Shown piece by piece: positions 8,786-29,264 of a stretch of 35,258 bases of DNA. Where the stretch lies: positions 1 to 35,258 of the IMG/VR virus record IMGVR_UViG_3300047169_000106; one strand, 5' to 3'. The DNA comes from a virus. A program made the position numbers and the translations under genes. Each line of letters begins with the position of its first letter. Position 1 is the first letter of the stretch. Under the pieces are notes generated by a model. That model was not told where the DNA came from, ran no database searches, and was given only the letters and a program-made list of their open reading frames with translations.

Positions 8786-8937
8786 GGAGGCAAGTAAGCA
8801 AGCAGTCCCTTTTTTGAAAAAAAGGGACCCAAAAAACTTTTCTCCGTTCAGGCCCGGCGCGGATGCAGTCGGGGGCCAAATGGACAAAAGTTTTTTTGGT
8901 TCTTTTTTTTCAAAAAAAGAACGGCTTACTTGCTTTT
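8786..8937. repeat. Palindromic A/T-hairpin intergenic element (copy A1)
   Basis: This element fills the gap between the gp48-like gene and the Gly-rich fibre. The left arm is AAGCAGTCCC-T6-G-A7-GGGACCC-A6-CTTTT; the right arm is the inverse type with GGTTC-T8-C-A7-GAAC. The left hairpin clamp is GTCCC/GGGAC while the right one is GGTTC/GAAC, so each arm keeps its own pairing despite changed bases. The core is short and GC-rich, unlike most other copies. Confidence 0.85.
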
Positions 8938-9597
8938 TCAGTTCGTAATATTCACCCAGGCGATCGCCGCCGTGGGCATCACCGCCGCGGCGGCGGTGTA
9001 GATGTCGGAGTCGGCGGTCGCGCTTTGGAGCATGGAGAGATCGGCCCATGCGGCGGCGATGCCGTAGCCGGCGGGGCCGCCCCAGGGGGGTGTCAGCGGG
9101 ATGCCGCCGCCGGCGGGGCGGCGGATGGTGACCAGGCATTGGAACGGCAGGGCGAGGCTGCCCCAGCCACCGGAGGTGCCGTAGCCCCAGGCCTGGTTCC
9201 AGGCGCCGGTGTCGGCGGGGCAGAGCGGTTCGAAGATGTGCGGCGTGTTGCCGGTGGCGTCGGTCAGGGCGGCGGCGAGGGCGGCGCGGGTGCCGCGTTC
9301 GCGCCGCAGTTCCAGGCCGATGGCGGTGCGCAGCGCGTCGTCGCCCTGGCCGGGTTTGCGGCGCAGGCGCGGGCCGAAGAAGTCGGATGCGATCAGGTCG
9401 AGAAACCCGCCGGTGGCGGTCATCACGCGCGCCTGCGTGCGGGCGGCCTGGAGTTGCGCGTACATCGTCGACCAGCCGGCGGCGAGCCCGGCCAGCACGG
9501 CGTCCAGCACCGGCGTGTCGTCGCCGAACCAGCGCGCCGGCAGCACGGCTTTCAGCCGCGCCACGATATCGGGCACATCGCCCGTCGCGGTTTCCAT
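8938..9597 (-). CDS. Baseplate/tail protein in the gp48 (DUF2313-like) position
   Basis: 219 aa from ATG at 9597, which overlaps the TAA stop of gpJ by one base (TAATG), so it is translationally coupled. Upstream codons in the same frame are read-through of gpJ DNA and are discarded. Visible features: an N-terminal helix (DVPDIVARLKAVLPARWF), VLDAVLAGLAAGWSTMYAQL, then FLDLIASDFFG, RKPGQGDDALRTAIG and RERGTRAALAAALTDATG. That layout is seen in tail proteins directly after gpJ in Mu-like phages (gp48/YmfQ), where they join the baseplate to tail fibres. The assignment rests mainly on gene order. Confidence 0.55.
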   Translation of the reverse strand: METATGDVPDIVARLKAVLPARWFGDDTPVLDAVLAGLAAGWSTMYAQLQAARTQARVMTATGGFLDLIASDFFGPRLRRKPGQGDDALRTAIGLELRRERGTRAALAAALTDATGNTPHIFEPLCPADTGAWNQAWGYGTSGGWGSLALPFQCLVTIRRPAGGGIPLTPPWGGPAGYGIAAAWADLSMLQSATADSDIYTAAAAVMPTAAIAWVNITN

Positions 9598-10721
9598 TAC
9601 GCCACCCCGATGGCGTTGATTTTCACCACGCCGGCAGGCCCCGGATCGATGTCCGCCGTGCCGCCGTTCAGCGTCACCGCGCCGACATTCAGCACATCGG
9701 CGCTGGCCTGGAACGCCAGCTGGGTGAGCCGCGCGTAGGGCAGCATGGCGCCGATCGGCAGGGCGTTGATCCAACTGGTGATCGCCGACGCCACCGCCTG
9801 CGTCGCCGCCAGGTGCGACGCGCCGGCAACCGTCACGATGGTCATCTGCACCGCCACGGTGGCAACCGCCGGCGGCTGCACGGTGAAGGCCGATCCGGCG
9901 GGGCGCACGGCATCCACCGCCTGGCTCACCAGCGCCAGCAGCGCCGCCGGCGGCGCGCCGGTGCCGTCATCCACCACAACGGTGAACGTGCCCATCCGCG
10001 GCGTGCCGTTGGGCAGGCTGTTCTCCAGCACCACCGCCTGCAAGCCCTGCTGCACGCTCTGCACCGCCGTCAGCACGGCGAGCGGCGTGGCGCGCGACCG
10101 GCTGGCCAGCCAGTTGCGGAAGCGCGCCCGCAGCGCGTCGTCGGGCTCGGCGTCCAGCCCGCCGCCGATGTCGTTGGCGTTGCTTACCGTGTCCACGCCG
10201 GGGATCGCCGAGGCCAGCAGCGTCACCGCGAATTGCTGCACATTGCCCGCAGCCCCCGGCGTGTCGCAGGACACCGGCACGTCCATCGAGGCAACGCCGG
10301 CCTGCAACACATAGCCGAGCATCACCGGGTCCCACGCGCCGTTCGTCGGGTCGGCCTGCACCAGGAAACCCTGCTGGCCGTCGGCGGTGCGCACCAGCGT
10401 GCCCACCGGCACGAACGCGGTCGCCGCCGGCACGTAGCGCGCGAACGTCACCACGCCCTGCGCCGCCACCGCCGGCAGCCGCGCCAGGGCGAAATCGGCC
10501 ATCCAGGCATCCAGATCGGCGCCCTCGCTGGTCGCCGCCCGCGATGCCGCCAGCACCTGCACGGCAATCCATTGCAGCCACAGCGCCACCGCGGCATTGG
10601 CCTCCAACACCGCGCGCAGCACGCTGCCCACCGAGAGGTCCACCAACGCCTTCGCGCCGCCCTGCACGGACGCCGCGGCGTCCGACACAAGCTGAGCAAA
10701 ATTGCGTAACGGCAATTGCAC
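9597..10721 (-). CDS. Baseplate J-like protein (gpJ/gp47 family)
   Basis: 374 aa starting at GTG 10721, three bases after the stop of the gp25-like gene. Family-typical blocks in order: an N-terminal helical region (VDLSVGSVLRAVLEANAAV), EGADLDAWMADFALARLPA, the barrel strands PVGTLVRTADGQQGFLV, the AGNVQQFAVTLLASAIPGVD block followed by N-DIGGGLDAEPDDALRARF, and a C-terminal VVDDGTG...VDAVRPAG region. gpJ proteins form the wedge of the contractile-tail baseplate. Length is normal for the P2/Mu family. Tight coupling on both sides (gp25 upstream, gp48-like downstream) supports the call. Confidence 0.93.
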   Translation of the reverse strand: MQLPLRNFAQLVSDAAASVQGGAKALVDLSVGSVLRAVLEANAAVALWLQWIAVQVLAASRAATSEGADLDAWMADFALARLPAVAAQGVVTFARYVPAATAFVPVGTLVRTADGQQGFLVQADPTNGAWDPVMLGYVLQAGVASMDVPVSCDTPGAAGNVQQFAVTLLASAIPGVDTVSNANDIGGGLDAEPDDALRARFRNWLASRSRATPLAVLTAVQSVQQGLQAVVLENSLPNGTPRMGTFTVVVDDGTGAPPAALLALVSQAVDAVRPAGSAFTVQPPAVATVAVQMTIVTVAGASHLAATQAVASAITSWINALPIGAMLPYARLTQLAFQASADVLNVGAVTLNGGTADIDPGPAGVVKINAIGVA

Positions 10722-10724
10722 GGC

Positions 10725-11096
10725 TCAACCCTCCCCGACATTGAAAGTAAGAACCTGGCTCGCCCCGGTCGTCGCGTCCGCATACCGCAGCCGAACCACC
10801 GTCACGCCATCGGTATGCACCTCCACATCCACCACCGGCTCAGGATCGCGCGCCACCGCGGCCTCCTTGAAAATCTGCCCCCGCACCACGGCCCTGATCC
10901 GCGCCGCCGACGCGGGCTGGCCGACAAAACGGCCCAGCCCCGCGCCGTAACCCGGCTGCCAGATGTAATCCCCGGGGTTGGTCAACAACCGCCGCAGCAC
11001 ACGCTGCCGGCCGAGCTCAGCGCCCGAAACGATCCCGAGATCGCCGGTCATGCCCACGCCGATGTCGGCGCCGAAGGCGTGGTTTAGGTCGGCCAT
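10725..11096 (-). CDS. Baseplate wedge protein, gp25/gpW family
   Basis: 123 aa, ATG at 11096 with GGAG about nine bases upstream. It contains GDYIWQPGYGAGLGRFVG, the hallmark loop of gp25-like baseplate subunits (P.YG..L), preceded by QRVLRRLLTNP and followed by RIRAVVRGQIFKEAAVARDPEP and VVRLRYADATTGASQVLTF. The family forms the baseplate wedge core with gpJ/gp6. It is first in a three-gene packet (gp25, gpJ, gp48-like) bounded by elements B2 and A1. Confidence 0.92.
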   Translation of the reverse strand: MADLNHAFGADIGVGMTGDLGIVSGAELGRQRVLRRLLTNPGDYIWQPGYGAGLGRFVGQPASAARIRAVVRGQIFKEAAVARDPEPVVDVEVHTDGVTVVRLRYADATTGASQVLTFNVGEG

Positions 11097-11110
11097 TTTA
11101 GTGTGCTCCA

Positions 11111-11247
11111 GAAAGGAAGTAGGGCCAGGGCTCTGCCGTCATGCCCCTGGCATGCTTCGCATGACGACCCGCAAGGGGGCGCGGCCCCCTTGACCCGCGA
11201 CGACCTGAAGTAAGAGGTCCAGGGGGACAAAGTCCCCTTGGCCTTCC
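11111..11247. repeat. Palindromic intergenic element, GC family (copy B2)
   Basis: Lies between the gpV-like and gp25-like genes and begins directly at the TAA stop of gpV. The arms read GGAAGTAGGGCCAGGG and the inverse CCAGGGGGACAAAGTCCCCTTGGCCTTCC. Internal hairpins include CAAGGGGGCGCGGCCCCCTTG and GCATGCTTCGCATG near the start. It is less symmetrical than B1 and B3. Confidence 0.75.
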
Positions 11248-11769
11248 TTAATCCTGCGGACTAGGCAGCACGCTGACCTGCCCCGGATGCGTATGCTCGT
11301 TGTAATGCGTGCGCAGCCGCGAGAGGGTGCCGACGCCGTCCAGCAGGTCGGTGGCGGTGAGCGTGCCGTTCACCACCACGTTGCCTTGGATGTGGATGGT
11401 GCCGTCGTTGGTGAGCTTCAGGCTGGAGCCGCTCTGGTGCACCAGCCAGAGTTCGCCCACCGGCGCGGCCGGGGGTGGTGTGGCTTGCGAGAAGGCGGCG
11501 CCGGCGATGACGCCTTGTTCCGCGTCGCCTTCCTGCGGCAGCACGAGCACCTGCATGCCCGGCGCCGGCAGGCTGGCCATGCCCCAGCCGGCGCCCACCC
11601 AGGGCGACAGCACGGGCAGCCAGCCGGTCAGCACGCCTTCGGGTTGCAGCGTGACGCGCGCGACATGGCGGGAGGGATCGACGCTGGTGACGGTGCCGAA
11701 GCGCGGCTGGCCCTGGCTGCGGTCGAGTGCCGCGGCATGGGCTTTCATCACGTTGAGGAAGCGGTTCAT
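11248..11769 (-). CDS. Baseplate assembly protein V (spike, gpV/gp45-like)
   Basis: 173 aa from ATG at 11769, overlapping the gpD stop as ATGA. The N-terminal OB-fold is visible: FGTVTSVDPSRHVARVTL, WLPVLSPWVGAGWG, MQVLVLPQEGDAEQGVIAGAAF. This is followed by LVHQSGSSLKLTNDGTIHIQGNV, the start of the triple-stranded beta-helix needle, and a C-terminal THYNEHTHPGQV. The HxH motif near the end is typical of needle tips that bind a metal ion. It forms the membrane-piercing spike under the tail tube. Length fits short gpV proteins without a lysozyme domain. Confidence 0.9.
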   Translation of the reverse strand: MNRFLNVMKAHAAALDRSQGQPRFGTVTSVDPSRHVARVTLQPEGVLTGWLPVLSPWVGAGWGMASLPAPGMQVLVLPQEGDAEQGVIAGAAFSQATPPPAAPVGELWLVHQSGSSLKLTNDGTIHIQGNVVVNGTLTATDLLDGVGTLSRLRTHYNEHTHPGQVSVLPSPQD

Positions 11770-12896
11770 GCGCTGAGGTCCACGGCGTCGGTCGGGCCGG
11801 TGGCCTGGCTGCCGACTTCGGTGTTGCGCGCGCTCAGGCGCTGGGTGAAGCCGTGCGTGATGTCGATGTGCCGTTCGATTTCGTCGATCCAGTAGGTCTG
11901 GTCGAAATCCGTGAACGTGCCTTCCAGGCGCATCATCATGCGCGGCGCCAGGGTGAGTTCGCCGGGCATTTCCGCGCTGATGACGCGCTCGTTGCGGCTG
12001 AGTTCGGCGAGCTTGGCCTGCGCAAGTTTGAGGGCGGCGTCCGGTGTCAGGTTCGGAATGATATAGACGTAGCGTTGCATCTGCGCCGTCTGCCCGCGCC
12101 CGATGCCGGCGGCGCCGCGCTTGCGGCGCGCCCGTGCGGTCTGCGTGAACGCCGCCTGGTGATGCGCGTTCCAGCTTTTCACCACCACCTCGATGTCCCG
12201 CGCGAAGGTGAGCGCGCGGCGCAGTTGCAGCGATGTCACGTTGGCTGGTCCTCCGGTCATCGGCGCCGGCCGCAGCACGGCGGCGGCTGTGGGTGCTGTC
12301 TGCGGCGGGCGGAAATGCAGCGTGCGGCCGCTCACCCACACATCGAACCCCTCGCGCCGCGCCAGCGTCACCAGCAGGTCCCACTCCGTGATGGCATGGG
12401 CGAACTCGCCGAGCGTGATGCGGTCATGTTCGTCCTGCCAATAGCGCCCGACGAGCTCCGTGGTCGGCGCCACATCCGGCGTCAGCCCGTGCCGCGCCGC
12501 CAGCAGCTCGGCGATCTCGCTGGCGCGGCGGTTGGCGAACGTCTCCTGCGTGCGCGCCTCGATCAGCAGCGCCGTGCGGTCCCGCCCGGCCAAGGTCACC
12601 GTGCGCGCCAGCGGGTCGATATCCACACTGTCGACGATGCCGTCGATCACCGTGGTCCAGGACAACCCGCCATCCAGCGACAGATCAAGCGTGGCCTCCA
12701 TATCATCCGTCGCCGCCCACGGCGCCGGCTGGGCATCGCCCAACGCAAGCTGCACATGAAACCGGTCGGCGGCGTAATGGTTGTTGCTGACCAGCTCCGC
12801 CGTCACCACGCTGGCGATCGTGGAGCCGTTCACCACCAGGCGCAGCCGCGGCGCCCGCACGGCGGCAAGATCAAACAGCAATGCCGCCTCCCGCAT
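11766..12896 (-). CDS. Late control protein D-like (gpD/gp27-type baseplate hub)
   Basis: 376 aa from ATG at 12896; it overlaps the upstream LysM gene by 26 bases and the downstream gpV gene by 4. Blocks typical of gpD/VgrG-type hubs: RLVVNGSTIASVVTAELVSN, HVQLALGD, VIDGIVDSVDIDPLARTVTLAGRDRTALL, ASEIAELLAARHGLTPDV, WDLLVTLARREGFDVWVSGRTLHFRP and the C-terminal DIEVVVKSWN...RVISAEMPGELTLAPRMMMRL. The protein forms the trimeric hub joining tail tube and spike. An alternative TTG start at 12881 has a better ribosome site (GGGAGG) and would shorten the protein by five residues. Confidence 0.9.
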   Translation of the reverse strand: MREAALLFDLAAVRAPRLRLVVNGSTIASVVTAELVSNNHYAADRFHVQLALGDAQPAPWAATDDMEATLDLSLDGGLSWTTVIDGIVDSVDIDPLARTVTLAGRDRTALLIEARTQETFANRRASEIAELLAARHGLTPDVAPTTELVGRYWQDEHDRITLGEFAHAITEWDLLVTLARREGFDVWVSGRTLHFRPPQTAPTAAAVLRPAPMTGGPANVTSLQLRRALTFARDIEVVVKSWNAHHQAAFTQTARARRKRGAAGIGRGQTAQMQRYVYIIPNLTPDAALKLAQAKLAELSRNERVISAEMPGELTLAPRMMMRLEGTFTDFDQTYWIDEIERHIDITHGFTQRLSARNTEVGSQATGPTDAVDLSA

Positions 12897-13053
12897 TCGG
12901 GTCCACCGGCGGCAGGTTCAGCGTGACCACCCCCCGCAGCATCGGGTCCGTCAGCCGGTTGAGCTTCGCAATGCGGATCCACTGCGTCGCATCGCCAAGC
13001 TCGCGGGCGGCGACGGCGAAGAGCGTGTCGCTTGTGGTGGTGATGCTGCGCAT
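12871..13053 (-). CDS. LysM-like tail protein X
   Basis: 60 aa from ATG at 13053. It is too short to stand out in the longer open frame, whose upstream part is only repeat translation. The sequence TSDTLFAVAARELGDATQWIRIAKLNRLTDP is a compact LysM-type motif, and VTLNLPPVDPN fits the short phage gpX proteins that sit beside gpD. gpX-type proteins help attach the baseplate hub to the tube. The reading frame overlaps gpD by 26 bases, indicating coupled translation. Confidence 0.85.
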   Translation of the reverse strand: MRSITTTSDTLFAVAARELGDATQWIRIAKLNRLTDPMLRGVVTLNLPPVDPNAGGGIAV

Positions 13054-13066
13054 GGGGGCCGCTCCG

Positions 13067-13221
13067 AAAGGAAGAAAGCGGTTCTTTTTTGAAAAAAAAG
13101 AACCAAAAAAACTTTTCTCACCTTGGGTCCGTCGGGTGGCGACGTGCGTGCCGATGCGTTGACGCGCGCAAATGGACAAAAGTTTTTTTGGTTCTTTTTT
13201 TTCAAAAAAAGAACTGCTTGC
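13067..13221. repeat. Palindromic A/T-hairpin intergenic element (copy A2)
   Basis: The left arm is GGTTC-T6-G-A8-GAACC-A7-CTTTT and the right arm is the inverse ending GAACTGCTTGCTTA. The core contains GTCGGGTGGCGACGTGCGTGCC...GCGTTGAC, the plus-orientation form of the family core. It abuts the TAA stop of the 13222-13833 gene. Confidence 0.9.
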
Positions 13222-13833
13222 TTACCCTCTATCCGCCGCCGAATTCGCAGCCGCGCGTTGCGCGTAGCCGCGGGCGATGGCTTGTTGGGCGAGGCTGCCG
13301 GTGGTGTCGCGGGTGGTGAGCAGGCCCGGGGCGGTGGTCGGGTCGGCGGTGGCCAGTGTGGTGCTGGCGATGCCGAGGTTGAGGCTGGCGAGGTCGAGGC
13401 CGGGGGCGATGTCGTCGGCGGTGCCGAGGTCGCCGGCGATGCTGGTGGCGAGCGAGACGGCGTCTTCCAGCAGGCCTTCGGCTTCGTCGCGCAGCACGGT
13501 GCAGGCGATGCGGTAGGGAATCCAGTTGGCGCGTTCGAAGGAGGCTTCGAAGCGGGAGACGACGACCGAGTAGAAGAACGTGTCCCACGCCAGGGGCAGG
13601 ATGGTGCCTTCGGCGCGCATCAGGTCCATCAGCCGGGCGCGGAGCGCGCCGTCGTCGCCGGTGAAGATGCCGTTCCAGGCGATTTCGCGGTCGTCGCGGC
13701 CCATGCTGTCCAGCACGCGGCGGCCGCCGGGCAGGCGGTGGATGGCGACGCGTTGGGCGCCGCCCCATTGGATGGATTGCGGCAGTTCGAAGCCTTGCAG
13801 CAGCAGGGGGCCGACGAGGAGGTAGTTGCTCAT
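13222..13833 (-). CDS. DNA-circularisation-N-like tail protein (Mu gp43/N position)
   Basis: 203 aa from ATG at 13833, overlapping the preceding stop as ATGA; the frame upstream of this is shadow. The N-terminal 110 residues (VAIHRLPGGRRVLDSMGRDDREIAWNG, then GDDGALRARLMDLMRAEGTILPLAWDTFFYSVVVSRFEASFERANWIPYRIACTV) follow the pattern of the DNA_circ_N domain: a Gly-Arg motif, a D-rich turn, strand-forming segments and FxxxxE. The rest is Ala/Thr-rich. In Mu this protein lies between the tape measure and the baseplate genes, the same position as here. The name of the family is historical; the role is in tail or baseplate assembly. Confidence 0.65.
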   Translation of the reverse strand: MSNYLLVGPLLLQGFELPQSIQWGGAQRVAIHRLPGGRRVLDSMGRDDREIAWNGIFTGDDGALRARLMDLMRAEGTILPLAWDTFFYSVVVSRFEASFERANWIPYRIACTVLRDEAEGLLEDAVSLATSIAGDLGTADDIAPGLDLASLNLGIASTTLATADPTTAPGLLTTRDTTGSLAQQAIARGYAQRAAANSAADRG

Positions 13834-14663
13834 CGTGCGGCCTCGCCTTGCAGTGTGCCGGGCCAGGTGGCGCCGGCGCGGGGGTCGAAGAAGGTGGTGG
13901 AGGTTTGCGGCATGTCGGCCTGCCGCCCGAGCTCGCGCGCCAGCCAGCGGCCGACGCGCATGCCGTCCAGGATCACGTCGCCGCCGATGGGGGTGGGGGC
14001 GGGCGCTGCGTCGGTCTGCTGGTCGCTGGCGGAGGTTGGCAGGGTGCGCTCGGGTGGTTGCGCGCGTGGGGCTGTCGGGATCGGCGCGACGGGGGCGGCC
14101 GGCGGCGCGGCACTGGCGAAGGACGGCCATGCCGGCGGCGCCGGTGCTGCGGCGGGCGGCGAGGGTTCCGCGGGGGCGGTCTGGGGCGTATCGGCCCAGC
14201 CGGGCAGGGACATCGGCCCCGGCGCGCGCGGCAGCTGGATCGGTTCGGCCGGCTGGGGCGCCGGGGTGGGGGCGAAGTGCGCGTAGTCCACCGGCTTGCG
14301 CTGAGCCGCGGCGGAGACCGGCGCGAAGGCAAGGCGCGTCACCGGCGCCGGCGCGGGGGCGGTCTCGCGGATGGTGCGCACCGTCTCGCTCGCCTTGGCC
14401 TCGCGCGGCAGCGGCGCTGCGGCACGCGGCAGAGGCGCCTCGCCCACCGCGCGCGGCGGCGGCAGAGGCGCGTCCGGCGCCGGCACGCTCGCCGGCGCCA
14501 CGGCAACCGGCTTGTCCGCCGCCTTGGGCTGCGGCACATGCGCCACGCGCGCCGCCATCCCGGCATCGAACGCGCCAAGCTGGCGTTCCAGCTTGGCGAG
14601 CGCGGGCGTCACCGCGTCATCCAGCACCAGGCGCACGCCGACGGCATAGGCTTCGTCCATCAC
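13830..14663 (-). CDS. Pro/Ala-rich protein in the tape-measure position
   Basis: 277 aa, ATG at 14663 (a second ATG follows at once); the start overlaps the stop of the upstream small gene. The first 35 residues (VRLVLDDAVTPALAKLERQLGAFDAGMAARV) resemble the opening helix of tape-measure proteins. The middle 170 residues are low-complexity Pro/Ala with no long hydrophobic or coiled-coil segment. The end (GGDVILDGMRVGRWLARELGRQADMP...FFDPRAGATWPG) looks folded. It is the only candidate tape measure, since the surrounding order is chaperones, this gene, DNA-circularisation-like protein. If so it is unusually short. It could instead be a tail cap or scaffold protein. Confidence 0.5.
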   Translation of the reverse strand: MMDEAYAVGVRLVLDDAVTPALAKLERQLGAFDAGMAARVAHVPQPKAADKPVAVAPASVPAPDAPLPPPRAVGEAPLPRAAAPLPREAKASETVRTIRETAPAPAPVTRLAFAPVSAAAQRKPVDYAHFAPTPAPQPAEPIQLPRAPGPMSLPGWADTPQTAPAEPSPPAAAPAPPAWPSFASAAPPAAPVAPIPTAPRAQPPERTLPTSASDQQTDAAPAPTPIGGDVILDGMRVGRWLARELGRQADMPQTSTTFFDPRAGATWPGTLQGEAAR

Positions 14664-14911
14664 CGCTCTCCCAGATGTTGCGCCAGATGCTCCGCCACGT
14701 CCCGCGCCGCCTGGGCCGCCGCCGGCGCCAGCACCGGGCGCGGCGCGCGCCCGGGCGTGCCGAACTCGGCCGCATGCCGCTCGCCGCCCCAGACGACGAC
14801 GATGCCCGCGTCGTCCGTGCGCACCGCGCCGCCAAGCGCCGCCGCCCGCGCGTGCAAAGCCGCCTCGGCCACGCCGCGCAGCGCCGCCAGCCGCCTTATC
14901 GTGCGATCCAT
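14660..14911 (-). CDS. Small tail-module protein, unknown
   Basis: 83 aa from ATG at 14911 (MDRTIRRLAALRGVAEAAL). The start lies inside the end of the frameshifted chaperone extension, and the stop overlaps the next start as ATGA. The sequence is helical, with a DDAGIVVVWGGERHAAEFGTPGRAPRPVL strand-turn centre and a helical C-terminus (AARDVAEHLAQHLGER). The central ERHAAEFGTP phrase is reminiscent of small virion completion proteins, but no family is assigned. Its tight coupling suggests a virion or assembly role. Confidence 0.65.
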   Translation of the reverse strand: MDRTIRRLAALRGVAEAALHARAAALGGAVRTDDAGIVVVWGGERHAAEFGTPGRAPRPVLAPAAAQAARDVAEHLAQHLGER

Positions 14912-15371
14912 TGCATGCTCTCCCAGTCGAATTGCTCGCCCTTCAGCGTGCCGATCGCGACAATCATCGCCAGGCGCATCGCCGGCGACAGGCTGAACGC
15001 CACATCGAACGGCACCCCGTTCATCACCAGATACAAAGGATCCAGCAGATCGGGGTGCCCGCTCAGTTTCCCGCGACGGCCCGCGTCGTCGCCGCATCCG
15101 GCTCCGCCGCCACCGCGCCGGCCACCGCGGCAATCCCGGCATCGCCCAGCCGCCGGATCACGCCCTCGATCGCCGCCTTGCTGTTGGGCACCGGAATCGG
15201 CACGTCGTCGATCGCCGTCACACTGGCGGCCAACGCCGCCATGCCCAGCCAACGGTCGTTGCGCGACAGCTCCGGCCCCGCCGCCTCGAACAGCCGCAGC
15301 TTGTCCAAGGCATTCAACCGCCGCAGCGCAATCCGCCGCCCGTCGGCATCCACCACCGCGCTCTCCGACAT
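14896..15371 (-). CDS. Tail assembly chaperone, frameshifted long form (gpGT-like)
   Basis: This is the joined product of the 0 frame 15371-15066 and the -1 frame 15066-14896. After a -1 slip on GGGAAAC the ribosome avoids the adjacent TGA and adds 56 residues beginning LSGHPDLLDPLYLVMNGVPF and ending QFDWESMQWIAR, giving 158 aa. The extension has no start codon or ribosome site of its own, which is what a programmed extension should look like. In lambda (G/GT), P2 (E/E') and Mu (gp41 pair) the long form recruits the tape-measure protein during tail assembly. Frameshifting efficiency cannot be read from sequence. Confidence 0.85.
15063..15371 (-). CDS. Tail assembly chaperone, short form (gpG-like)
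   Basis: 102 aa from ATG at 15371, sharing one base with the tail tube stop (TGATG). Helical acidic protein: RRIALRRLNALDKLRLFEAAG, RWLGMAALAASVTAIDDVPIPVPNSKAAIEGVIRRLGDAGIAAV. The DxxxxPxPxxKxxIE phrase recurs in phage tail chaperones. The stop codon TGA directly follows a slippery heptamer. The short form coats the tape measure in excess over the long form in better-known phages; the same is inferred here. Confidence 0.88.
   Translation of the reverse strand: MSESAVVDADGRRIALRRLNALDKLRLFEAAGPELSRNDRWLGMAALAASVTAIDDVPIPVPNSKAAIEGVIRRLGDAGIAAVAGAVAAEPDAATTRAVAGN
15066..15072 (-). promoter_or_regulatory. Programmed -1 ribosomal frameshift site, G GGA AAC
   Basis: On the minus strand the end of the short chaperone reads GC-G GGA AAC TGA. 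GGGAAAC is a canonical X XXY YYZ heptamer in the correct phase, with the 0-frame stop as the next codon. The -1 frame is open for 56 codons past this point. Confidence 0.9.
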
Positions 15372-15799
15372 CAGACGCGCCGCCGCGCCGCGGCAAAGAA
15401 CTCCAGCCGCTGCTTCACTGGCGCATCGCCCCGCCAATGCCCCGCCTGGCTCAGCCGGAACACCACACCGTCATACTGATACGTGCTGGTCGACCCATCG
15501 GTCTCCGACACGTACTGATACAGCGTGCCAGTGCCCGCCTGCGTGCCGGCATGGAACGCCGCCTCCATGCGCGCGATGAAATCATCCACCGCGGAAGAGC
15601 CGCGCTCCAACTCGAACGCCCCCTCCCAGCCCTTCGGCAACTCGGCCGCCAACTGCGTGCCGTCGATGCGATCCACCCGCACCGCCGCCGGCATCTGCCG
15701 ACTCTCGAAGCCGGTGACATGCGACAAATCAATCCGCCCATAGGGGCCCATGACGACCAGCTGGCAATCGCGGCCGACGGAGAACGTGTTCACTGACAT
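15371..15799 (-). CDS. Tail tube protein
   Basis: 142 aa from ATG at 15799 (MSVNTFSVGRDCQLVVMG). It lies between the sheath gene and the chaperone pair, the position of the tube gene in all Mu/P2-type phages. Strand-rich sequence: GPYGRIDLSHVTGFESRQ, RVDRIDGTQLAAELPKGWEGAFELERGSSAVDDFIARMEAAF and TGTLYQYVSETDGSTSTYQYDGVVFRLSQAGHW. The G(W)xGxFELER...D..IA..E phrase is typical of phage tail tube proteins of this size. It polymerises into the inner tube. Upstream in-frame codons are repeat-derived. Confidence 0.85.
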   Translation of the reverse strand: MSVNTFSVGRDCQLVVMGPYGRIDLSHVTGFESRQMPAAVRVDRIDGTQLAAELPKGWEGAFELERGSSAVDDFIARMEAAFHAGTQAGTGTLYQYVSETDGSTSTYQYDGVVFRLSQAGHWRGDAPVKQRLEFFAAARRRV

Positions 15800-15821
15800 T
15801 GAGTGATTTCCTCGGTTTTCA

Positions 15822-15964
15822 GAAAGGAAGGTAAGAAAGGCCAAGGGGCTTCGCCCCCTGGACCCCCACCAGGGGCCGAGCCCCTGGACCTCAAAATATT
15901 CAGGTGCAGGGGCTGGGCCCCTGCTAGGGGGTCCAGGGGGACAAAGTCCCCCGGCCTTGCTTCC
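15822..15964. repeat. Palindromic intergenic element, GC family (copy B3)
   Basis: Separates sheath from tube and starts at the TAA stop of the sheath gene. It has four hairpins in series: CCAAGGGGCTTCGCCCCCTGG-like, CCAGGGGCCGAGCCCCTGG, CAGGGGCTGGGCCCCTG and GGGGGACAAAGTCCCCC. The outer ends GGAAGGTAAGAAAGGCC and GGCCTTGCTTCC are inverse to each other. Confidence 0.82.
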
Positions 15965-21365: not shown

Positions 21366-21373
21366 GGGAAGAA

Positions 21374-21593
21374 GTCGAAGGAAGAAAGACTCTTCTTTTT
21401 TGAAGCTTACCTGCCGATCATCTTTATCGGATCAAGCGAAGTGGCTTGATCCGTTGATGACCGGGAGAAGCAAAAAACTTTTATCCCCTTGGACCCGTCG
21501 GGTGGCGACGTGGATGCCTCGGCGTTGAAACCCGGGAGGGACAAAAGTTTTTTTGGTTCTTTTTTTCAAAAAAAGAACTGCTTGCTTCCTTCC
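21374..21593. repeat. Palindromic A/T-hairpin element with hairpin inserted in one arm (copy A5)
   Basis: The right arm is the standard form ending GAACTGCTTGCTTCCTTCC, next to the scaffold stop. The left arm starts CTTC-T6-GAAG and is then interrupted by about 70 bases including CGGATCAAGC-GAAGTG-GCTTGATCCG, a perfect 10-bp stem, before rejoining CAAAAAACTTTT. The core is in A2 orientation (CCCGTCGGGTGGCGACGTGGATGCC...GCGTTGAA). Confidence 0.85.
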
Positions 21594-21986: not shown

Positions 21987-23400
21987 TCACACGCTCCGAT
22001 GCTGCGCCGCCCGATGCGGCCTCTGCGGCGATGCGGGCGAGTTCGGCGCCCACATCGTCGATGTCGTAGGTCCCGGCGATGGATTTCACCGCGGTTTCGC
22101 GGCTGATCTGCCCGGCCTGTGCCAGTTTGCTGAGGGTCTGCGCGTCCTTCGCGCGGTCGTCGGCGGAGGGCGCGTACCAGCGCGGCCAGACGAGGTTCAG
22201 CGGTGCGTGGATGTCGAGCGCGGGGATTTCCGCGCCGGCCAGGCGGAGGCTGAAGCGCTCGCTGGCGCGCAGCACCATGCGCGCCAGTTGCAGCATCGCG
22301 TCGCCGTAGGAAACCCGCAGATTGTCGGCCAGGAAAATCAAACCCTGGTTCATCAGCTCCAGCGCGCGGCCGGATTGCGCGGCGGCGATGCGGTCGGCAC
22401 TCGCCCGGTTGCCGTGCACGCCTTCCAGCGCGAGTTCGCGCAACGTGCGGACATATTCGATCACCGCGGATGTCGCGTGGCCGTCGATCTGCAGCAGCTT
22501 GGCGTCGCCGCCCTCGCCTACCACCAGCGCGTTGCCGCCGCCTTTGATCACGTCGCCGTCCGGCATCGCGGGTTCGCGCACCAGCAGCGTCGGGTCGGAG
22601 GAGTATTTCAGTCCGCGGCCGGCCTGCGAGAGCTGGTAGTCGATCTCGATGGAGGTCTCGACCGCGGGGCGGAAGGTGCAGGCGCCGTCGATGTCGTCGC
22701 CGCCCGGCAGGTTGCGCACCCAGACGATCGGCACGAAGCCGAGCCCGTGGCGCACCGTGCGCTTTTCGTCCACCGCCGGCTTGCCCGCGCCGGAGACCGG
22801 CCACGGCTTGAACCACACCTCGCGCTCGCGGTCCCAGCGCCGCATGAACCAGTAATCCGCGTTGGGCTCCGGCACGTCGTAGCCCTGGCCGATCAGCACG
22901 GCGCCGCGCACCTTGTATTTCTCGGTCACCGAAACGAGCTCGTCCGGCGCCCCGGCATCCCAGGCCGGCGTCAGAAACTGCGTCTCCAGCACACGGAAAA
23001 ACACCCGCCCGCGCAGCACCCGCAGCAGGATCGCCACGCTGCCGACACTGCCGCGCAGCCCGGCCTCCAGCATCACCTGGTTCAGCCGCGCCTCGCGCGC
23101 CATATCGCCAAGCACCTGGCGCACCGTGCGGTCCGCACTGTCCAGCGCCGGAAAATGCCCCTCGCCGAACACCAGCGACAGGCTGTCATCCACCACGATC
23201 CGCGCCAGCGGATACCGCACCGAAGGCCGGCGCATGCGCAACGGAATATACTCGCCCGAGCCCATCCGCTCATCCTGGAACTCGTACGGCAACGCGTCGT
23301 ACAACGTCCCCGCCAGCACGCGCTGCATCACCTCCAGCGTCCAGACCCGCTCGGGATAGTCGCGATCCTTCGGCACGAGGCCGCTGAGCGTCCCGAACAT
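21961..23400 (-). CDS. Portal protein
   Basis: 479 aa from ATG at 23400, with a GGAG-type site upstream. N-terminus: YPERVWTLEVMQRVLAGTLYDALPYEFQDERMGSGEYIPL, RRPSVRYPLARIVVDDSLSLVFGEGHFP. Middle: LETQFLTPAWDAGAPDELVSVTEKYKV, HGLGFVPIVWVRNLPGGDDIDGACTFRPAVETSIEIDYQLSQAGRGLKYSSDPTLLV. C-terminal helical crown: SGRALELMNQGLIFLADNLRVSYGDAMLQLARMVL. This is the SPP1-gp6/phage_portal type layout. It forms the dodecameric head vertex through which terminase packages DNA. Length is normal. Confidence 0.9.
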   Translation of the reverse strand: MFGTLSGLVPKDRDYPERVWTLEVMQRVLAGTLYDALPYEFQDERMGSGEYIPLRMRRPSVRYPLARIVVDDSLSLVFGEGHFPALDSADRTVRQVLGDMAREARLNQVMLEAGLRGSVGSVAILLRVLRGRVFFRVLETQFLTPAWDAGAPDELVSVTEKYKVRGAVLIGQGYDVPEPNADYWFMRRWDREREVWFKPWPVSGAGKPAVDEKRTVRHGLGFVPIVWVRNLPGGDDIDGACTFRPAVETSIEIDYQLSQAGRGLKYSSDPTLLVREPAMPDGDVIKGGGNALVVGEGGDAKLLQIDGHATSAVIEYVRTLRELALEGVHGNRASADRIAAAQSGRALELMNQGLIFLADNLRVSYGDAMLQLARMVLRASERFSLRLAGAEIPALDIHAPLNLVWPRWYAPSADDRAKDAQTLSKLAQAGQISRETAVKSIAGTYDIDDVGAELARIAAEAASGGAASERVNDTDLDAG

Positions 23401-23423
23401 TGCTGTCTCCGTCTAGGGGTTTG

Positions 23424-23574
23424 AGAAAGAAGTTCTTTTTTTGAAAAAAAAGAACCAAAAAAACTTTTGTCCGTTTACTTGTGTCAACGCGGAAGCACGG
23501 CCGTCGCCACCCGACGGGTGCGAGGGGAGAGAAGTTTTTTTGGTTCTTTTTTTTCAAAAAAAGAACTGCTTGCC
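23424..23574. repeat. Palindromic A/T-hairpin intergenic element (copy A6)
   Basis: The left arm is AAGTTC-T7-G-A8-GAACC-A7-CTTTTGTCC and the right arm is GAAG-T7-GGTTC-T8-C-A7-GAACTGCTTGCC. The core GTGTCAACGCGGAAGCACGGCCGTCGCCACCCGACGGG has the A3/A7 orientation. It adjoins the TAA stop of the DUF2335 gene. Confidence 0.9.
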
Positions 23575-24000
23575 TTACTTGCTTTCAGACCCGCTACCCG
23601 ACGCCAGCCAGGCGCGGCCTTTGATGAAGGCGGTGACCATGCTGGCGGCGCCGGCTGCGAGGAAGCCGCCGGCGACGGCTTCGTGGCCTGCCATGGCAGC
23701 GTAGTAGGCGCCGATCAGCATGCCGATCGCCACGGCAAAGCCCAGCACCTGGCCGGCGATGGCGTAGGCGAAATCGAGCAGGAGCGACGTGCGATCCAGC
23801 CGGTGGCGATGGCGTTGTTCGGTTTCGCTCATCCGCAGGATGCGTTCGGCGGCGCCGGGGAGGATGGCGTCGTAGCGGCTGAGGTGGTCGGGGTGCGGCA
23901 GCGGGCCGCTATAGGCTTCTTCGCGGACGACGCTGAGCGTCGTCCTTTTCATCGGTTCCGGCGCGGGGTCCGGGTTGTCCGGCAGGTTACCTGCCGACAT
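23575..24000 (-). CDS. DUF2335 predicted membrane protein
   Basis: 141 aa from ATG at 24000, overlapping the upstream gene by 14 bases; an internal ATG at 23952 (MKRTTLSVV) has a better-placed GGAA and could be the real start. The sequence SGPLPHPDHLSRYDAILPGAAERILRMSETEQRHRHRLD is the DUF2335 signature. It is followed by two transmembrane helices (residues about 74-96 and 105-125). DUF2335 proteins occur widely in prophages and bacterial genomes; no biochemical role is established. Here, just after the terminase and before the portal, it might act at the inner membrane during infection or lysis. Confidence 0.85.
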   Translation of the reverse strand: MSAGNLPDNPDPAPEPMKRTTLSVVREEAYSGPLPHPDHLSRYDAILPGAAERILRMSETEQRHRHRLDRTSLLLDFAYAIAGQVLGFAVAIGMLIGAYYAAMAGHEAVAGGFLAAGAASMVTAFIKGRAWLASGSGSESK

Positions 24001-24214
24001 CTCGGCGGTAGGTTGCCAGTGCGGTGCGGATATCGCCGCCGACGGCTTTCCAGTCGCCGGCGATCCCGTCGTTCACCGGGTGCCACCGGCGTGCAGGTGC
24101 GCCTTGCTGGAAAAACCGCAGGAATCCGGCCATGCCGTCGACGAAGCCGGCGAAGAAGCTGCCGGCCGGCAGCGCGGCGGTTGCCCAGCGTGTTTGCATC
24201 CGCATCTTAGCCAT
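23987..24214 (-). CDS. Small protein, unknown
   Basis: 75 aa from ATG at 24214 with AGGAAAC upstream. The N-terminus is basic and then weakly hydrophobic (WATAALPAGSFFAGFVDGMAGFLRFFQQG), which may be a membrane-associated amphipathic helix. The C-terminal half (RRWHPVNDGIAGDWKAVGGDIRTALATYRRDVG) is typical of small proteins encoded beside DUF2335 in prophages. Overlap with the DUF2335 start implies coupling. A role in lysis (holin/pinholin-like) is possible but not supported by a clear transmembrane segment. Confidence 0.6.
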   Translation of the reverse strand: MAKMRMQTRWATAALPAGSFFAGFVDGMAGFLRFFQQGAPARRWHPVNDGIAGDWKAVGGDIRTALATYRRDVGR

Positions 24215-24261
24215 GTTTCCTGGTTCCGATCATCGGGTTATCCTAACGCGGCCATCCCGGC

Positions 24262-24290
24262 GCGAAAATACCATTTGAAGGGTATTTCGC
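24262..24290. other. Inverted repeat between terminase and small gene
   Basis: GCGAAAATACC-atttgaag-GGTATTTCGC: a near-perfect 10-bp stem with an 8-base loop, in the 141-bp gap after the terminase stop. A second stem, CCACGC/GCGTGG (24336-24354), immediately follows the terminase stop. There is no clear T-run on the minus strand, so an operator or mRNA-processing hairpin is as likely as a terminator. Confidence 0.55.
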
Positions 24291-24355
24291 CCCTTAACAG
24301 GTGAGACTTCTCGCAAAATATTCAATGTGGTGTGTCCACGCAAACGCCGCGTGGC

Positions 24356-25735
24356 CTACCGCGCGAAAATCCGCATCGGAATGCGGATCGGCGCCCGCGG
24401 CACCGCCTTGGTCCGCAGCATGGCGAAGCCGCGGGAGAGTGCGTCCACCTGGTCGTCTTTCGCGCCGGTGGGGAAGCTGCGGAGTTCTTCGACGAAGGGC
24501 TGGTTCCAGGCGGCGCGTTGCATCAGCAGGGTTCCGGCTTCGATGGCGGCGGCCACCGGGGTGGCGCGGACGGTTTTGCTGCCGGTCTCGGGGCTTGCTT
24601 CCACCGGGAAGCCTGCGAGTTGCTGGGTGAGCCAGGCGACCTGGTGCTTCCCGGCCTGCCCCGGGTCTTGGGGCAGGCCGATCCGCACCGCTCGTCCGTC
24701 GCGCGCCGCTGTGGCGATCAGTGTCTGGGCCACGTCGTTGGGACCTGCGCGCAGGCGGACGATGTCGAGGATGTAGGAGCGCCCGTCGGCCGCGCGGCCG
24801 AGCTTGACGCCCACCGTCCAGTCGGGATCGCGTCCGTCCGTGGCGGCGCTTGCCGCGAGGTCCCAGGCGCGGACGCAATCCAAATTCGCCGGCGCGCTGT
24901 CCACGGCGACAAGCTTATCGGCCATGAACAGCGCGCCCTCCGCCGGCGCCGGGGTCTGCTGGTAGAGCGCGGCCCACACCCGTGCCCCCGCGCTCGACCG
25001 CTTCCGCTGCAGCGCCGCCAGATTCTCCCATTCCGGCCACAGCGCCTCGCCCGGCGCGCGGCCGATGGGGTCGTTGTATCCGGCAATGGCCGGCAGGCGC
25101 AGGATGCGCCAGCCGTCGTCGGAGGCGGCCAGGCGGCCGCCGAGGTCGTCTTCGTGCCAGCGCGTCATCACCAGCACGATCCGCCCGCCCGGCTTGAGGC
25201 GGGTGAGCAGTTCGCTGCGGTACCAGTCCCAGATCGCCGCGCGGGCGGCCGAGCTGTCGGCGATGGCGAAGCTTTTGATCGGATCGTCGATCAGCGCGAG
25301 GTCCGCACGCCGCCCGGTCAGCGGGCCTTGCACGCCGGTGGCGAAATATTCGCCGCCGGACTCGGTCGCGAAGCGGTGGGCGGCGCGGCTGTCGCGGGCC
25401 AGCGCCGCGCCGTCGCCGTGTTCGGCCAGCAGGTTGCGCACCTGGCGGCCGAAATGGGCGGCGAGTTCGGCGGTGTGGCTGGCGGCGACGATATTGCCGC
25501 CGCCGTTGTGCAGCAGCCACCAGGCCGGGAAGATGCGGCTGGCGTAGGTGGATTTCGCGCTGCCCGGCGGCATCAGCACCATCAGGCGGTCGCAGCGCCC
25601 GGCGGCGACGTCCGCCAGGTTCTCCAGCAGCTTGATATGATGCCGTGCGGGGGTCTTGCCCTCGGCGGCCATCACATGGTGCGCCCATCCGACGAGATCG
25701 GACGGTCCCTGCGCGCGTTTGATTGCCCGGGCCAC
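24356..25735 (-). CDS. Terminase large subunit
   Basis: 459 aa from GTG at 25735, chosen because GGGAG lies seven bases upstream; the longer frame (to 25813) has no ribosome site and unlikely residues. Walker A PPGSAKST at residues 56-63; Walker B LALIDDP at about 146-152; coupling region VLVMTRWHEDDLGGRL. The C-terminal RNase-H-like nuclease shows RAWDLAAS (first Asp) and KDDQVDALSRG (last Asp). It cuts and translocates DNA into the procapsid through the portal. Family: terminase_6/DUF3-type TerL with normal length. No small subunit gene was recognised beside it. Confidence 0.95.
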   Translation of the reverse strand: MARAIKRAQGPSDLVGWAHHVMAAEGKTPARHHIKLLENLADVAAGRCDRLMVLMPPGSAKSTYASRIFPAWWLLHNGGGNIVAASHTAELAAHFGRQVRNLLAEHGDGAALARDSRAAHRFATESGGEYFATGVQGPLTGRRADLALIDDPIKSFAIADSSAARAAIWDWYRSELLTRLKPGGRIVLVMTRWHEDDLGGRLAASDDGWRILRLPAIAGYNDPIGRAPGEALWPEWENLAALQRKRSSAGARVWAALYQQTPAPAEGALFMADKLVAVDSAPANLDCVRAWDLAASAATDGRDPDWTVGVKLGRAADGRSYILDIVRLRAGPNDVAQTLIATAARDGRAVRIGLPQDPGQAGKHQVAWLTQQLAGFPVEASPETGSKTVRATPVAAAIEAGTLLMQRAAWNQPFVEELRSFPTGAKDDQVDALSRGFAMLRTKAVPRAPIRIPMRIFAR

Positions 25736-25817
25736 GTCCGCTCCCAAAAAATGGAAAAGGCGGCCGGGGTGGCATCGGGCGCCCCGGGTTCGGGTTGCCT
25801 TCGCCACACACACGCCG

Positions 25818-25883
25818 CCGATCTTGAAGAACCTTATACGCCTTTCCGGGGCGTGTGGGAATATTATTTACTCATACCTGGAA
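25818..25883. repeat. 66-bp direct repeat upstream of terminase, copy 1
   Basis: Read on the minus strand: TTCCAGGTATG, an AT-rich block ending AATATTCCCAC, GCCCCGGAAAGGCGT, TAAGGTT and GATCGG. 54 of 66 positions match copy 2, 171 bp away. The two GC halves can pair (ATACGCC...GGCGTGT). Matching CACACACA runs beside both copies and ATTCCTAG at 25947/26107 suggest the duplicated unit was originally about 160-170 bp. Confidence 0.8.
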
Positions 25884-25988
25884 TTTTGTCTCTGCATAGC
25901 TGACAGAGCGTCAAAACCAGATTTTACGCCTGCGGCCAAGCCGCCGATTCCTAGGGAAGGCGATTCGCCCCCGAGCACACACACTCAT

Positions 25989-26054
25989 CCGATCATGGAA
26001 AACCTTACACGCCTTTCCGGGGCACGTGGGAATATTAATATTGCATACCAGGAA
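25989..26054. repeat. 66-bp direct repeat upstream of terminase, copy 2
   Basis: Same orientation as copy 1. Its AT block contains the perfect palindrome AATATTAATATT (26031-26042). On the minus strand a TTGTTT...16 bases...TAATAT arrangement could be a weak sigma70-type promoter facing the terminase. This is suggestive only. Confidence 0.8.
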
Positions 26055-26476
26055 AACAAGCTACGCATGGCAGACTCCCGGCCCCACTCCCTAAGCTCCA
26101 GCCCAAATTCCTAGCGCGAAAACACCGCGCTTCGGAACGCCAGAACATCATAAAATCAACACGTTAAACTGTAGTGTAAATACACGATCTCCATTCCCGC
26201 CACAGTTATGCCCGAATTCGCCCACAACAAATCGCACAACCAATGCGCCGATAGGGGTTGATCTTCGCGTCATGTCTTGGCTGAATGCAGTTCGGCTTCC
26301 GCTGTGACTGCGGCAGCCGATGCGATGCTGCACCCGGGATTCGCCCACGCGGAAATCCGCCCACGCCTTGCTTCGTGCACATCCGCATGTCCGCCACACC
26401 GGGTCCCACCGGCCCGGTCCGGCCCGACCACACGCCCGCATCCCAGGGCCATGGTCCGCCAGGAGAGGAGTTGCCT

Positions 26477-27001: not shown

Positions 27002-27160
27002 GGAAGGCAGCAAGCAGTTCTTTTTTTGAAAAAAAAGAACCAAAAAAACTTTTGTCCCTTCGCGATGACAACGCTGAGGTCCCCCAGTAGCCACCCGACG
27101 GGACCAAGGTGAGAAAAGTTTTTTTGGTTCTTTTTTTTCAAAAAAAGAACTGCTTCCTCC
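27002..27160. repeat. Palindromic A/T-hairpin intergenic element, best copy (A7)
   Basis: Begins at the TAA stop of the RlpA-like gene (TAAGGAAGGCAGCAAGCAG). Arms 27012-27053 and 27114-27155 are exact reverse complements over 42 bp, each with its own hairpin (GTTC-T7-G-A8-GAAC). The 60-bp spacer contains GACAACGCTGAGG and CCACCCGACGGGACCAAGGTG. It is the reference copy for the family. Confidence 0.95.
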
Positions 27161-27202
27161 CCTAGCCTTCCACCCGCCCCCCCGATCCTGTATCCCCCCG
27201 CC

Positions 27203-28114
27203 ATGGCCCAATTCACCACGATCGAGAGCGGCAGTTTCCCCGAAGGAGCCCATATCCAGGGCGCGGAAGGCCCGGTGCCGGTCGCCGCGCTCAGCCCCGG
27301 CGACCTCGTGCAGACGCATGGCGGCCTCATCGCGCTCGTTGCCGTGCATGAAATACCGCCGGCGCCGGGGGCCATTCTGGTGCGGCCCGGCGCGTTCGGC
27401 CCCGAGCATCCCTCCCGCGATCTCGTGCTGGCCGCCGAGCAGCTCGTCTATCTCCGCGCGCCCGACGCCGCCCAGGGCGCGCTTGCCCCGGTCGGCGCCC
27501 TGGTGAACGGCAGCACCGTGCTGCGCGCCAACGACAGCACGGAGCGGCGCTGGTTCACCCTGCAATGCGCCCAGCACGCCATCGCCACTGTGGACGGGCT
27601 GCCGCTGGCGCTGCACCGCCCCGCCGGCGCCCCGCTGGCCGCCGCCGCGATCCCGCCCGGCCCGGCCTTGTTTGCCTTGCGCGGGCGCGTGGCGCGCGGC
27701 GAGATCGTCGCCGAACGGGCCGACATCCCCGATCCGCTCGCCAGCGGCGCGCAGACCGTGATGCTGCGGGTGGACGGCAGGATGATCGCCTCCGAGTCGC
27801 CCGACTCCTTCCGCTTCCGCGTGCCGCCGGGCGCTTCCGCCATCGTTCTGGTCTCGCGCAGCTTCCGGCTGCGCAATTCGGAGGACACTCGCCGCTTCGG
27901 CGTCGCCGTCACCGCGCTGGTGCTGGACGGCGTGCCGCTCGACCTCGCCGGCCCCGCCATCGGCCCGGGGTTTCACCTGCTGGAGGGCGAGGGCGACTCG
28001 CGCTGGCGCTGGACCGACGGCGCCGCCACCATCGCCATCCCCCCCAGCGCCCGCCCCCGCCGCCTCGCCGTCGCCATCACCGACTGGCACAGCAAGCTCG
28101 AACAGGCCGCCTGA
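27203..28114 (+). CDS. Hint-domain (Hedgehog/intein-like) protein lacking the N-terminal Cys
   Basis: 303 aa from ATG at 27203; no clear ribosome site. Residues 11-150 follow the Hint_2 pattern: SFPEGAHIQGAEGPVPVAALSPGDLVQTHGG, ILVRPGAFGPEHPSRDLVLAAEQLVYL, APVGALVNGSTVL, then a WFTLQCAQHAIATVDGLPLALHR block. The residue that should be the nucleophilic Cys of the CFxxGTxI motif is Ser11. The C-terminal half (VMLRVDGRMIASESPDSFRFRVPPGASAIVLVSRSFRLRNSEDTRRFGVAV) is a beta-sandwich of the kind seen beside such Hint domains. Proteins of this kind are abundant in Acetobacteraceae and often sit next to sugar or methyl transferases. Processing activity is doubtful. The next gene begins three bases after its stop. 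Confidence 0.75.
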   Translation: MAQFTTIESGSFPEGAHIQGAEGPVPVAALSPGDLVQTHGGLIALVAVHEIPPAPGAILVRPGAFGPEHPSRDLVLAAEQLVYLRAPDAAQGALAPVGALVNGSTVLRANDSTERRWFTLQCAQHAIATVDGLPLALHRPAGAPLAAAAIPPGPALFALRGRVARGEIVAERADIPDPLASGAQTVMLRVDGRMIASESPDSFRFRVPPGASAIVLVSRSFRLRNSEDTRRFGVAVTALVLDGVPLDLAGPAIGPGFHLLEGEGDSRWRWTDGAATIAIPPSARPRRLAVAITDWHSKLEQAA

Positions 28115-28117
28115 CAC

Positions 28118-29050
28118 GTGCAGACCGACAGCTACGTGTTCATGGCGGACCATATCGCCAAATTCTTCAACACCATCCGCATCGCCGGCTGGTTCCATCA
28201 CCCGACCGACGGGCTGGCGGACGTCCGCCTGCACGACCCCCGCGTCACCGCCGCGATCGCCGCCGTGGCCCAGCCGCATGAAGGCGTCGCCGCCCTCGGC
28301 CCCGACAAGGGGTTCACCCTCCAGGTGATGCGCAGCACCGAAGGGTTCGACGACCAGGCCGAGCTCGAATTCATCACCCGCGACGGCTGGCGACACCGCG
28401 TCAAACTCGCCGACCTCGCCGCCGAACGGCTCGGCAACCACGCGACGCCCGACCTGCTGCACCGATTCCAGGCGGCGATGCACGCCGAACCGGGCGCCCG
28501 CATCCTCGACATCGGCGGCCGCTCCCGCAGCGGCCTGGCACGGCGGGACCTGTTCGACGTCGGCGAATACACCGTGCTGGACGTGCTGCCCGACCCCAGC
28601 GTGGACGTCGTCGGCGACGCGCACGCGCTGGCCGCGCTGTTCCCCGCCGATCATTTCGACGGCATCGTCTCCGTCAGCGTGTTCGAGCACCTGATGATGC
28701 CCTGGGCGGTCGCCACACAGATGAACCATGTGCTGAAACGCGGCGGCCTCGCGCTGATCTACACCCACCAGACACTCGGCATGCACGACGCGCCGTGGGA
28801 TTTCTGGCGCTACTCCGACACCGCGTGGGACAGCCTGTTCAACCGCCACACCGGCTTCGAAATCCTCGCCCGCGCGCTCGACGGTGAACAATTCGTGGTC
28901 CCCTTCATCCAGACGCCGAACAAGATCCACGCCGAACGCGCCGCCGGCTACGAAGGCTCGGCCGTGCTGGTGCGCAAGATCGGGCCTTGCCTCATGACGT
29001 GGCCCCTGGTTGCGGCGGATGTCGCGCCTAGTATGTATCCGGAGGATTAA
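28118..29050 (+). CDS. Class I SAM-dependent methyltransferase
   Basis: 310 aa from GTG at 28118, three bases after the Hint gene stop; an ATG at 28142 (MADHIAKF) is the alternative. The N-terminal 105 residues (FNTIRIAGWFHHPTDGLADVRL, FTLQVMRST) look like a separate beta-sandwich. The methyltransferase domain starts at PGARILDIGGRSRSG (residues about 125-139, the SAM loop), followed by YTVLDVLPDPSVDVVGDAHAL, FDGIVSVSVFEHLMMPW (post-loop acidic and VFEH motif) and LKRGGLALIYTHQT. The substrate is unknown; this group often methylates sugars or lipids in surface polysaccharide clusters. It is operonic with the Hint gene. Confidence 0.82.
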   Translation: MQTDSYVFMADHIAKFFNTIRIAGWFHHPTDGLADVRLHDPRVTAAIAAVAQPHEGVAALGPDKGFTLQVMRSTEGFDDQAELEFITRDGWRHRVKLADLAAERLGNHATPDLLHRFQAAMHAEPGARILDIGGRSRSGLARRDLFDVGEYTVLDVLPDPSVDVVGDAHALAALFPADHFDGIVSVSVFEHLMMPWAVATQMNHVLKRGGLALIYTHQTLGMHDAPWDFWRYSDTAWDSLFNRHTGFEILARALDGEQFVVPFIQTPNKIHAERAAGYEGSAVLVRKIGPCLMTWPLVAADVAPSMYPED

Positions 29051-29066
29051 CGGGGGGTTAAGGCAA

Positions 29067-29264
29067 GTGGAAGGAAGGCAAGCAGTTCTTTTTTTGAAAA
29101 AAAAGAACCAAAAAAACTTTTTCCACCTTGGTCCCGTCGGGTTTCAATCTGCGAGCCCCAGCGTTGACACAGGGGGGAGAAAAAGTTTTTTTGCTTCTTT
29201 TTCACTGCGCGGCGCCTTCGCCGGCGCACTTTCACAAAAAGAAGATTCTTGCCTTCCTTTCGCT
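29067..29264. repeat. Palindromic A/T-hairpin element with nested hairpin (copy A8)
   Basis: Follows the methyltransferase stop after about 18 bases. The left arm is AAGCAGTTC-T7-G-A8-GAACC-A7-C. The core has A2 orientation (GTCCCGTCGGGTT...CAGCGTTGACAC). The right-arm hairpin loop carries TGCGCGGCGCCTTCGCCGGCGCA, a GC hairpin close to the one in A3. Confidence 0.9.

Follow-up and report, generated by a model that had tools for sequence, protein, structure and literature searches.

Terminator-like A/T-tract palindromes dispersed among Acetobacteraceae genomes and within a phage-like gene cluster

The IMG/VR virus record IMGVR_UViG_3300047169_000106, a 35-kb contig analyzed here over its full 35,258 nt (the window; all coordinates are positions within this record), carries a myovirus-like structural gene cluster and a repressor-like HTH gene. 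The phage-like cluster comes from a relative of acetic acid bacteria. Eight palindromes built of A/T-tract hairpins, A1–A8, lie between intact genes within 8792–29264, and all eight copies claimed in a preliminary description of the sequence are present. The cluster, the elements and the parts used as references for their anatomy are as follows.

9597–25813, minus strand: myovirus-like structural cluster (baseplate, hub, tube, sheath, capsid, portal, TerL), which holds A2–A6.
8792–8937, no strand: A1, between g05 (stop at 8938, minus strand) and g04; the left arm is the GTCCC/GGGAC variant and a spacer of its own replaces the shared core.
13067–13227, minus strand: A2, between g10 (stop at 13222, minus strand) and the baseplate hub gene; shared core in reverse orientation.
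18567–18752, plus strand: A3, between g17a (stop at 18754, minus strand) and g16; carries the shared core and, in the right-arm loop, a GC-rich insert; the junction whose empty site is clearest among relatives.
19836–19985, no strand: A4, immediately past the stop of the capsid gene (19980, minus strand); left arm GTCCC/GGGAC, spacer of its own.
21468–21595, minus strand: A5, between g19 (stop at 21594, minus strand) and the capsid gene; carries the shared core but no longer has a left hairpin.
23419–23579, plus strand: A6, between g21 (stop at 23575, minus strand) and the portal gene; shared core; relatives lack this TerL–portal segment.
27004–27163, plus strand: A7, located between the RlpA-like gene (stop at 27001, plus strand) and the Hint-domain gene; shared core, flanked by arms without a mismatch over 42 bp.
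29072–29263, minus strand: A8, between the convergent methyltransferase gene (stop at 29050, plus strand) and an open reading frame (ORF) at 29375–32026 (minus strand); shared core, right arm of the CTTC/GAAG type with a GC-rich loop insert.
27012–27053, plus strand: reference left arm (A7), AAGCAGTTC-T7-G-A8-GAACC-A7-CTTTT.
27114–27155, minus strand: reference right arm (A7), which inverts the left arm exactly; its outward reading (plus strand) is an A/T hairpin followed by TTCTTTTTTTT.
18631–18690, plus strand: reference directional core (A3), GTCAACGC...CGCCACCCGACGGG.

The arms of A7, described beforehand as error-free over 42 bp, are indeed identical over that length and fold into one unbroken 42-bp stem (z = −12.9 and −11.8 on the two strands), and inverted matches between whole elements extend to 138 nt at 86% identity. 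A directional core, as had been proposed, is common to most copies and occurs both ways around: A2, A5 and A8 carry it in one orientation and A3, A6 and A7 in the opposite one, with pairwise identities of 62–72% (z = 5–9 against shuffles) and alignment scores in these orientations that far exceed those obtained in reverse. Three copies deviate from this anatomy: A1 and A4 have other spacers and a compensated left stem (GTCCC..GGGAC), and the left hairpin of A5 is gone. A3 and A8 have in common a GC-rich insert of ~28 nt in one arm loop; this hairpin (CTGCGCGGCGCCTTCGCCG.CGCACT, at 18705–18732 and 29207–29236) is a nested module. Arms and cores evolve under different constraint, since the arms are nearly invariant and divergence among the cores reaches at least 30%. 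No Rfam covariance model matched the window at its gathering score.

Read outward from the core, each arm is a stem-loop followed by TTCTTTTTTT, that is, a hairpin and a T8 (U) tract, and this order of stem-loop then U-tract, the form of a bidirectional intrinsic terminator, is found on both strands. The stems themselves are A/T tracts and not the GC-rich stems of the classical terminator. All eight elements start 7–34 bp past a stop codon, which is TAA in seven of them.

The arm recurs, in up to hundreds of copies, across many Acetobacteraceae genomes. Searches of 84,980 genomes with the exact arm pattern matched 38 stretches, nearly all from Acetobacteraceae or Rhodospirillales metagenome-assembled genomes, and a looser pattern found arms in 22 of 100 Acetobacteraceae genomes, with 1–602 hits each. 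The reversed pattern, used as a control, gave no match in any genome searched, which excludes a chance origin. Among 240 genomes sampled from the alphaproteobacterial class the arm was present in one, the query genome itself. Recent local duplication as the source of the eight copies, which would have confined them to the window, is ruled out by this family-wide spread. The density in the window, initially called very high, is close to that of the densest host genome sampled (G084, one per 3.1 kb). Neither the exact arm plus core in the 84,980 genomes nor the core plus arm in viral contigs gave a match, so the core of the window is without known occurrence elsewhere; BLAST searches with the core over 397 Acetobacteraceae genomes returned short, weak hits only. 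Phage and plasmid collections held no match to A7, which is weak evidence because the low-complexity filter may hide the arms. As no published description of the repeat was found in the open literature (subscription papers lay outside the scope), this real and widespread element family is apparently undescribed.

Rumen Oscillospirales carry the same 37-nt arm, usually singly and followed by a conserved directional tail of its own, and part of these copies lie between divergent genes. Copy numbers in two rumen genomes are 253 and 17, the arms there being followed by other tails, and only 2 of the 147 genomes of the order match. The Oscillospirales arm may reflect descent, transfer or convergence.

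The elements of the host genomes follow the same plan as those of the window: a hairpin arm (GTTC..GAAC, CTTC..GAAG, TTTC..GAAA or other pairs), an A-tract, CTTTT, a spacer and the inverse. The outer stem pair, which takes three states, is Watson–Crick in 329 of 348 arms, whereas independence of the two sides would predict 199 (0 of 2000 permutations). Since the two arms within an element are often unlike each other, what is conserved is the local hairpin. The spacers, in contrast to the family-wide arms, are lineage-specific and often repeated inside one genome: one host has an inner inverted repeat, ATTCGCTGGAGTC..GACTCCAGCGAAT, another a long palindrome, and G084 a directional core found in both orientations. 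The inner core stems are GC-rich in some hosts.

Across four sets of host genomes, the median distance between an arm and the closest gene 3′ end is ~17 bp. Convergent gene pairs have elements between them most often and divergent pairs rarely, a pattern that repeats across genomes, and the genes followed by an arm end in TAA more often than other genes (31% versus 13%, p = 2e-6). KKNQKNF/FFSKKE-type peptides among ORF predictions are frames that run through arms. The bidirectional terminator reading put forward in the preliminary description thus gains support from the place of the elements just after stop codons and from their depletion between divergent genes.

Comparison with relatives points to insertion. 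Synteny of the structural cluster extends to 20 Acetobacteraceae genomes. These copies contain no arms, even though G084 and a second genome among them have hundreds of arms elsewhere and the hosts include ones with 602 and 109 hits. Here the A3 junction is 206 bp long; among relatives its length is −1 to 1 bp in 15 of 20 from hosts and in 28 of 35 from viruses, and the ends of both flanking proteins are the same. This is a clear empty site and the strongest single piece of evidence. The A1 junction spans 185 bp, against 9–79 bp in 14 of 15 relatives, and the A5 junction 294 bp, against 12–174 bp. In three other relatives, elements at TerL–portal or sheath–tube junctions add ~130–145 bp where the same junctions measure ~10–30 bp elsewhere. 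The search of relatives for empty sites that had been suggested therefore yielded filled and empty states at the A3 and A1 junctions, at the resolution of the gene junction and not of the strain. At the nucleotide level, comparison of G084 with its genus neighbor gave no usable empty sites, given an identity of only 73–84% and the short contigs of the neighbor.

Dispersal is seen in G084, where a composite of ~140 bp is present in >50 copies of 80–98% identity, each sharply bounded and set in unrelated flanking sequence. Such scattered, near-identical copies are what miniature inverted-repeat transposable elements (MITEs) would produce; the copies in the window share their core at 62–72%. Of the earlier proposal of a MITE- or REPIN-type palindrome, the MITE-like half stands on these copies and on the empty sites. 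The REPIN/RAYT half is not supported: the suggested search for a linked transposase gene found Y1_Tnp (RAYT-type) genes in 2 of 12 element-rich genomes and none in the other 10, including the richest, with 602 arm hits.

Taken together, we consider it probable (about 0.7) that the elements are dispersed, insertable, MITE-like bidirectional intrinsic terminators—terminator palindromes—of the Acetobacteraceae, with shared arms and lineage-specific cores. The anatomy, the distribution over the family, the place just after stop codons, the covariation of the hairpin and the insertion between abutting genes are shown here. Each arm, read outward from the core, presents an A-tract, a stem-loop and a U-tract, and it is because of this outward terminator shape that we propose the arm pair to stop transcription that exits the core on either side. 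A transcript coming from the gene on the left would be stopped in the right arm and one from the gene on the right in the left arm. Judged from their form and position, the elements would be expected to terminate transcription in vivo, and a transposase or similar activity on the arms may have spread them.

Several observations weigh against this assignment. A consensus promoter and terminator scan, which needs at least three G–C pairs, showed no excess, because its rule demands GC-rich stems. Single arms that point into the adjoining gene are common in some hosts and are left unexplained if each arm is purely the terminator of that gene; our guess is that they block antisense transcription. 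No consistent target-site duplication was seen beside 24 aligned G084 copies (20 sampled and four from earlier loci), and no transposase for the elements was found; an autonomous insertion sequence (IS) with matching terminal repeats did not turn up either, in a search that was not exhaustive. Membership of the MITE class is incomplete, since neither an IS partner nor a target duplication was found. Some of the spread is hitch-hiking, because a few G084 copies sit inside a larger IS-like repeat. The gene calls in host DNA, finally, came from a crude ORF caller. The IS-like repeat that encloses G084 copies has GTCYGTCC ends and TTAG/TCAG duplications, which occur only at this larger carrier and not at the element copies.

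The best-surviving alternative, although an unlikely one, holds that each gene end of the host lineage acquired an ordinary intrinsic terminator of its own or retained one under selection, their likeness reflecting a form preferred across the family and the likeness of the cores reflecting gene conversion between arms. The place just after stop codons, the covarying hairpin and the far stronger conservation of arms than of cores would all be expected on these terms, and cores could also be inverted by ectopic recombination between the opposed arms, which would randomize their orientation. However, gene conversion requires pre-existing arms and cannot make new sites, whereas the full 206-bp A3 element splits genes that abut in relatives and leaves both proteins unchanged, and the G084 copies have sharp borders and unrelated flanks.

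Improbable, too, is a role as 3′-end hairpins that stabilize mRNA or direct RNase processing, as for ERIC and Correia transcripts, and so adjust the stoichiometry of late genes while transcription continues. There is a precedent in MITEs processed by RNase III and RNase E (PMC10969869), and the folds are very stable on both strands and lie directly past stop codons, but the conserved T-tracts outside the stems and the depletion between divergent genes suit termination better. We give little credence to a phage operator or stoperator whose directional core would bind a repressor that blocks elongation: a nearly invariant ACCCGACGGG motif in the otherwise diverged core is what such a site might show, yet among co-directional genes the core orientation is unrelated to gene direction, A1 and A4 have no such core, and host genomes carry other cores. 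A promoter in the core as the main role was rejected, as core orientation ignores gene direction. REPIN-type elements moved by a RAYT transposase would likewise be small, inverted, high-copy intergenic palindromes, but they are the least credible candidates given the missing Y1_Tnp genes, the A/T-tract stems, the lack of a conserved GTAG or CGTC tag on inspection of the arm sequences, and the reported absence of CGTC repeats from Acetobacteraceae (PMC3733652).

The terminator palindromes come nearest in kind to SPRITE and to MITEs of the ERIC and Correia type, and may behave like a terminator-carrying MITE. ERIC is an imperfect palindrome of ~127 bp. Like ERIC and the Correia/NEMIS MITEs (PMC10969869), the elements are palindromic intergenic repeats, of ~130–190 bp and in up to hundreds of copies, that have empty sites, occur in both orientations and often lie at 3′ ends; unlike them, they show no IS-matching inverted repeat and no TA or other duplication, and their terminator-like arms are family-wide while the cores differ. 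SPRITE (PMC3049150), compared here by description, is also an AT-rich dispersed intergenic repeat of intrinsic-terminator form and MITE-like size, without a clear target duplication and thought to be parasitic, but it is a Firmicute repeat with an 18-bp duplex and one U-rich tract, whereas the present elements have two inverted hairpin arms around lineage-specific cores and reside in GC-rich Alphaproteobacteria and a phage. With the modular pneumococcal BOX repeat they share a modular build, but they have no tandem boxB-like units; repeats that provide the adjoining gene with its stop codon have been reported, and TAA is enriched before the present arms. REP/REPIN sequences with RAYT are similar as small inverted intergenic palindromes and differ in the transposase, the tag and the stems.

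A search with the capsid gene found the structural cluster (window 1–25813) in 166 of 397 Acetobacteraceae genomes, nearly always as a single copy, at up to 77% identity, and gene order was conserved in the 20 genomes inspected. One possibility is a prophage-derived or gene-transfer-agent-like locus maintained by vertical inheritance; related contigs from peat moss have been called cryptic phage (PMC12142844). Between A7 and A8, the Hint-domain gene followed by the methyltransferase gene (27203–28114) resembles a moron segment. Just upstream of TerL, a CACACACA...CGTGTGGGAATATT repeat is present in two copies (25805–25904 and 25976–26075; 75% identical, 171 bp apart), perhaps a control or packaging region. 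A second, GC-rich type of intergenic palindrome (CCAGGGGGCGAAGCCCCTTGG) is found at 4400–4650 and 15841–15861, near the g02/tail-fiber and tube genes.

Frames that cross the arms account for many spurious ORF predictions in Acetobacteraceae, and the window is a warning that host-type repeats can occur on virus contigs. Because several elements interrupt a set of genes that form a single compact row in relatives, expression of the late genes would call for antitermination or additional promoters. If the elements are indeed insertable bidirectional terminators, a phage-like cluster tolerates at least five of them in a structural gene row that is nearly gapless in relatives, and a bacterial family would reshape its transcription units through the insertion of ready-made two-way terminators. 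The movement of dispersed terminators and the reading of late phage genes beyond them then become open to test. Tentatively, and at less than even odds, we suggest mobile terminators as a class, built on a single conserved arm that is present in Acetobacteraceae and near-identical over 37 nt in rumen Oscillospirales; the arm would capture differing cores in each lineage, spread with them, insert exactly at stop–start junctions and split a phage late operon into separately insulated units.

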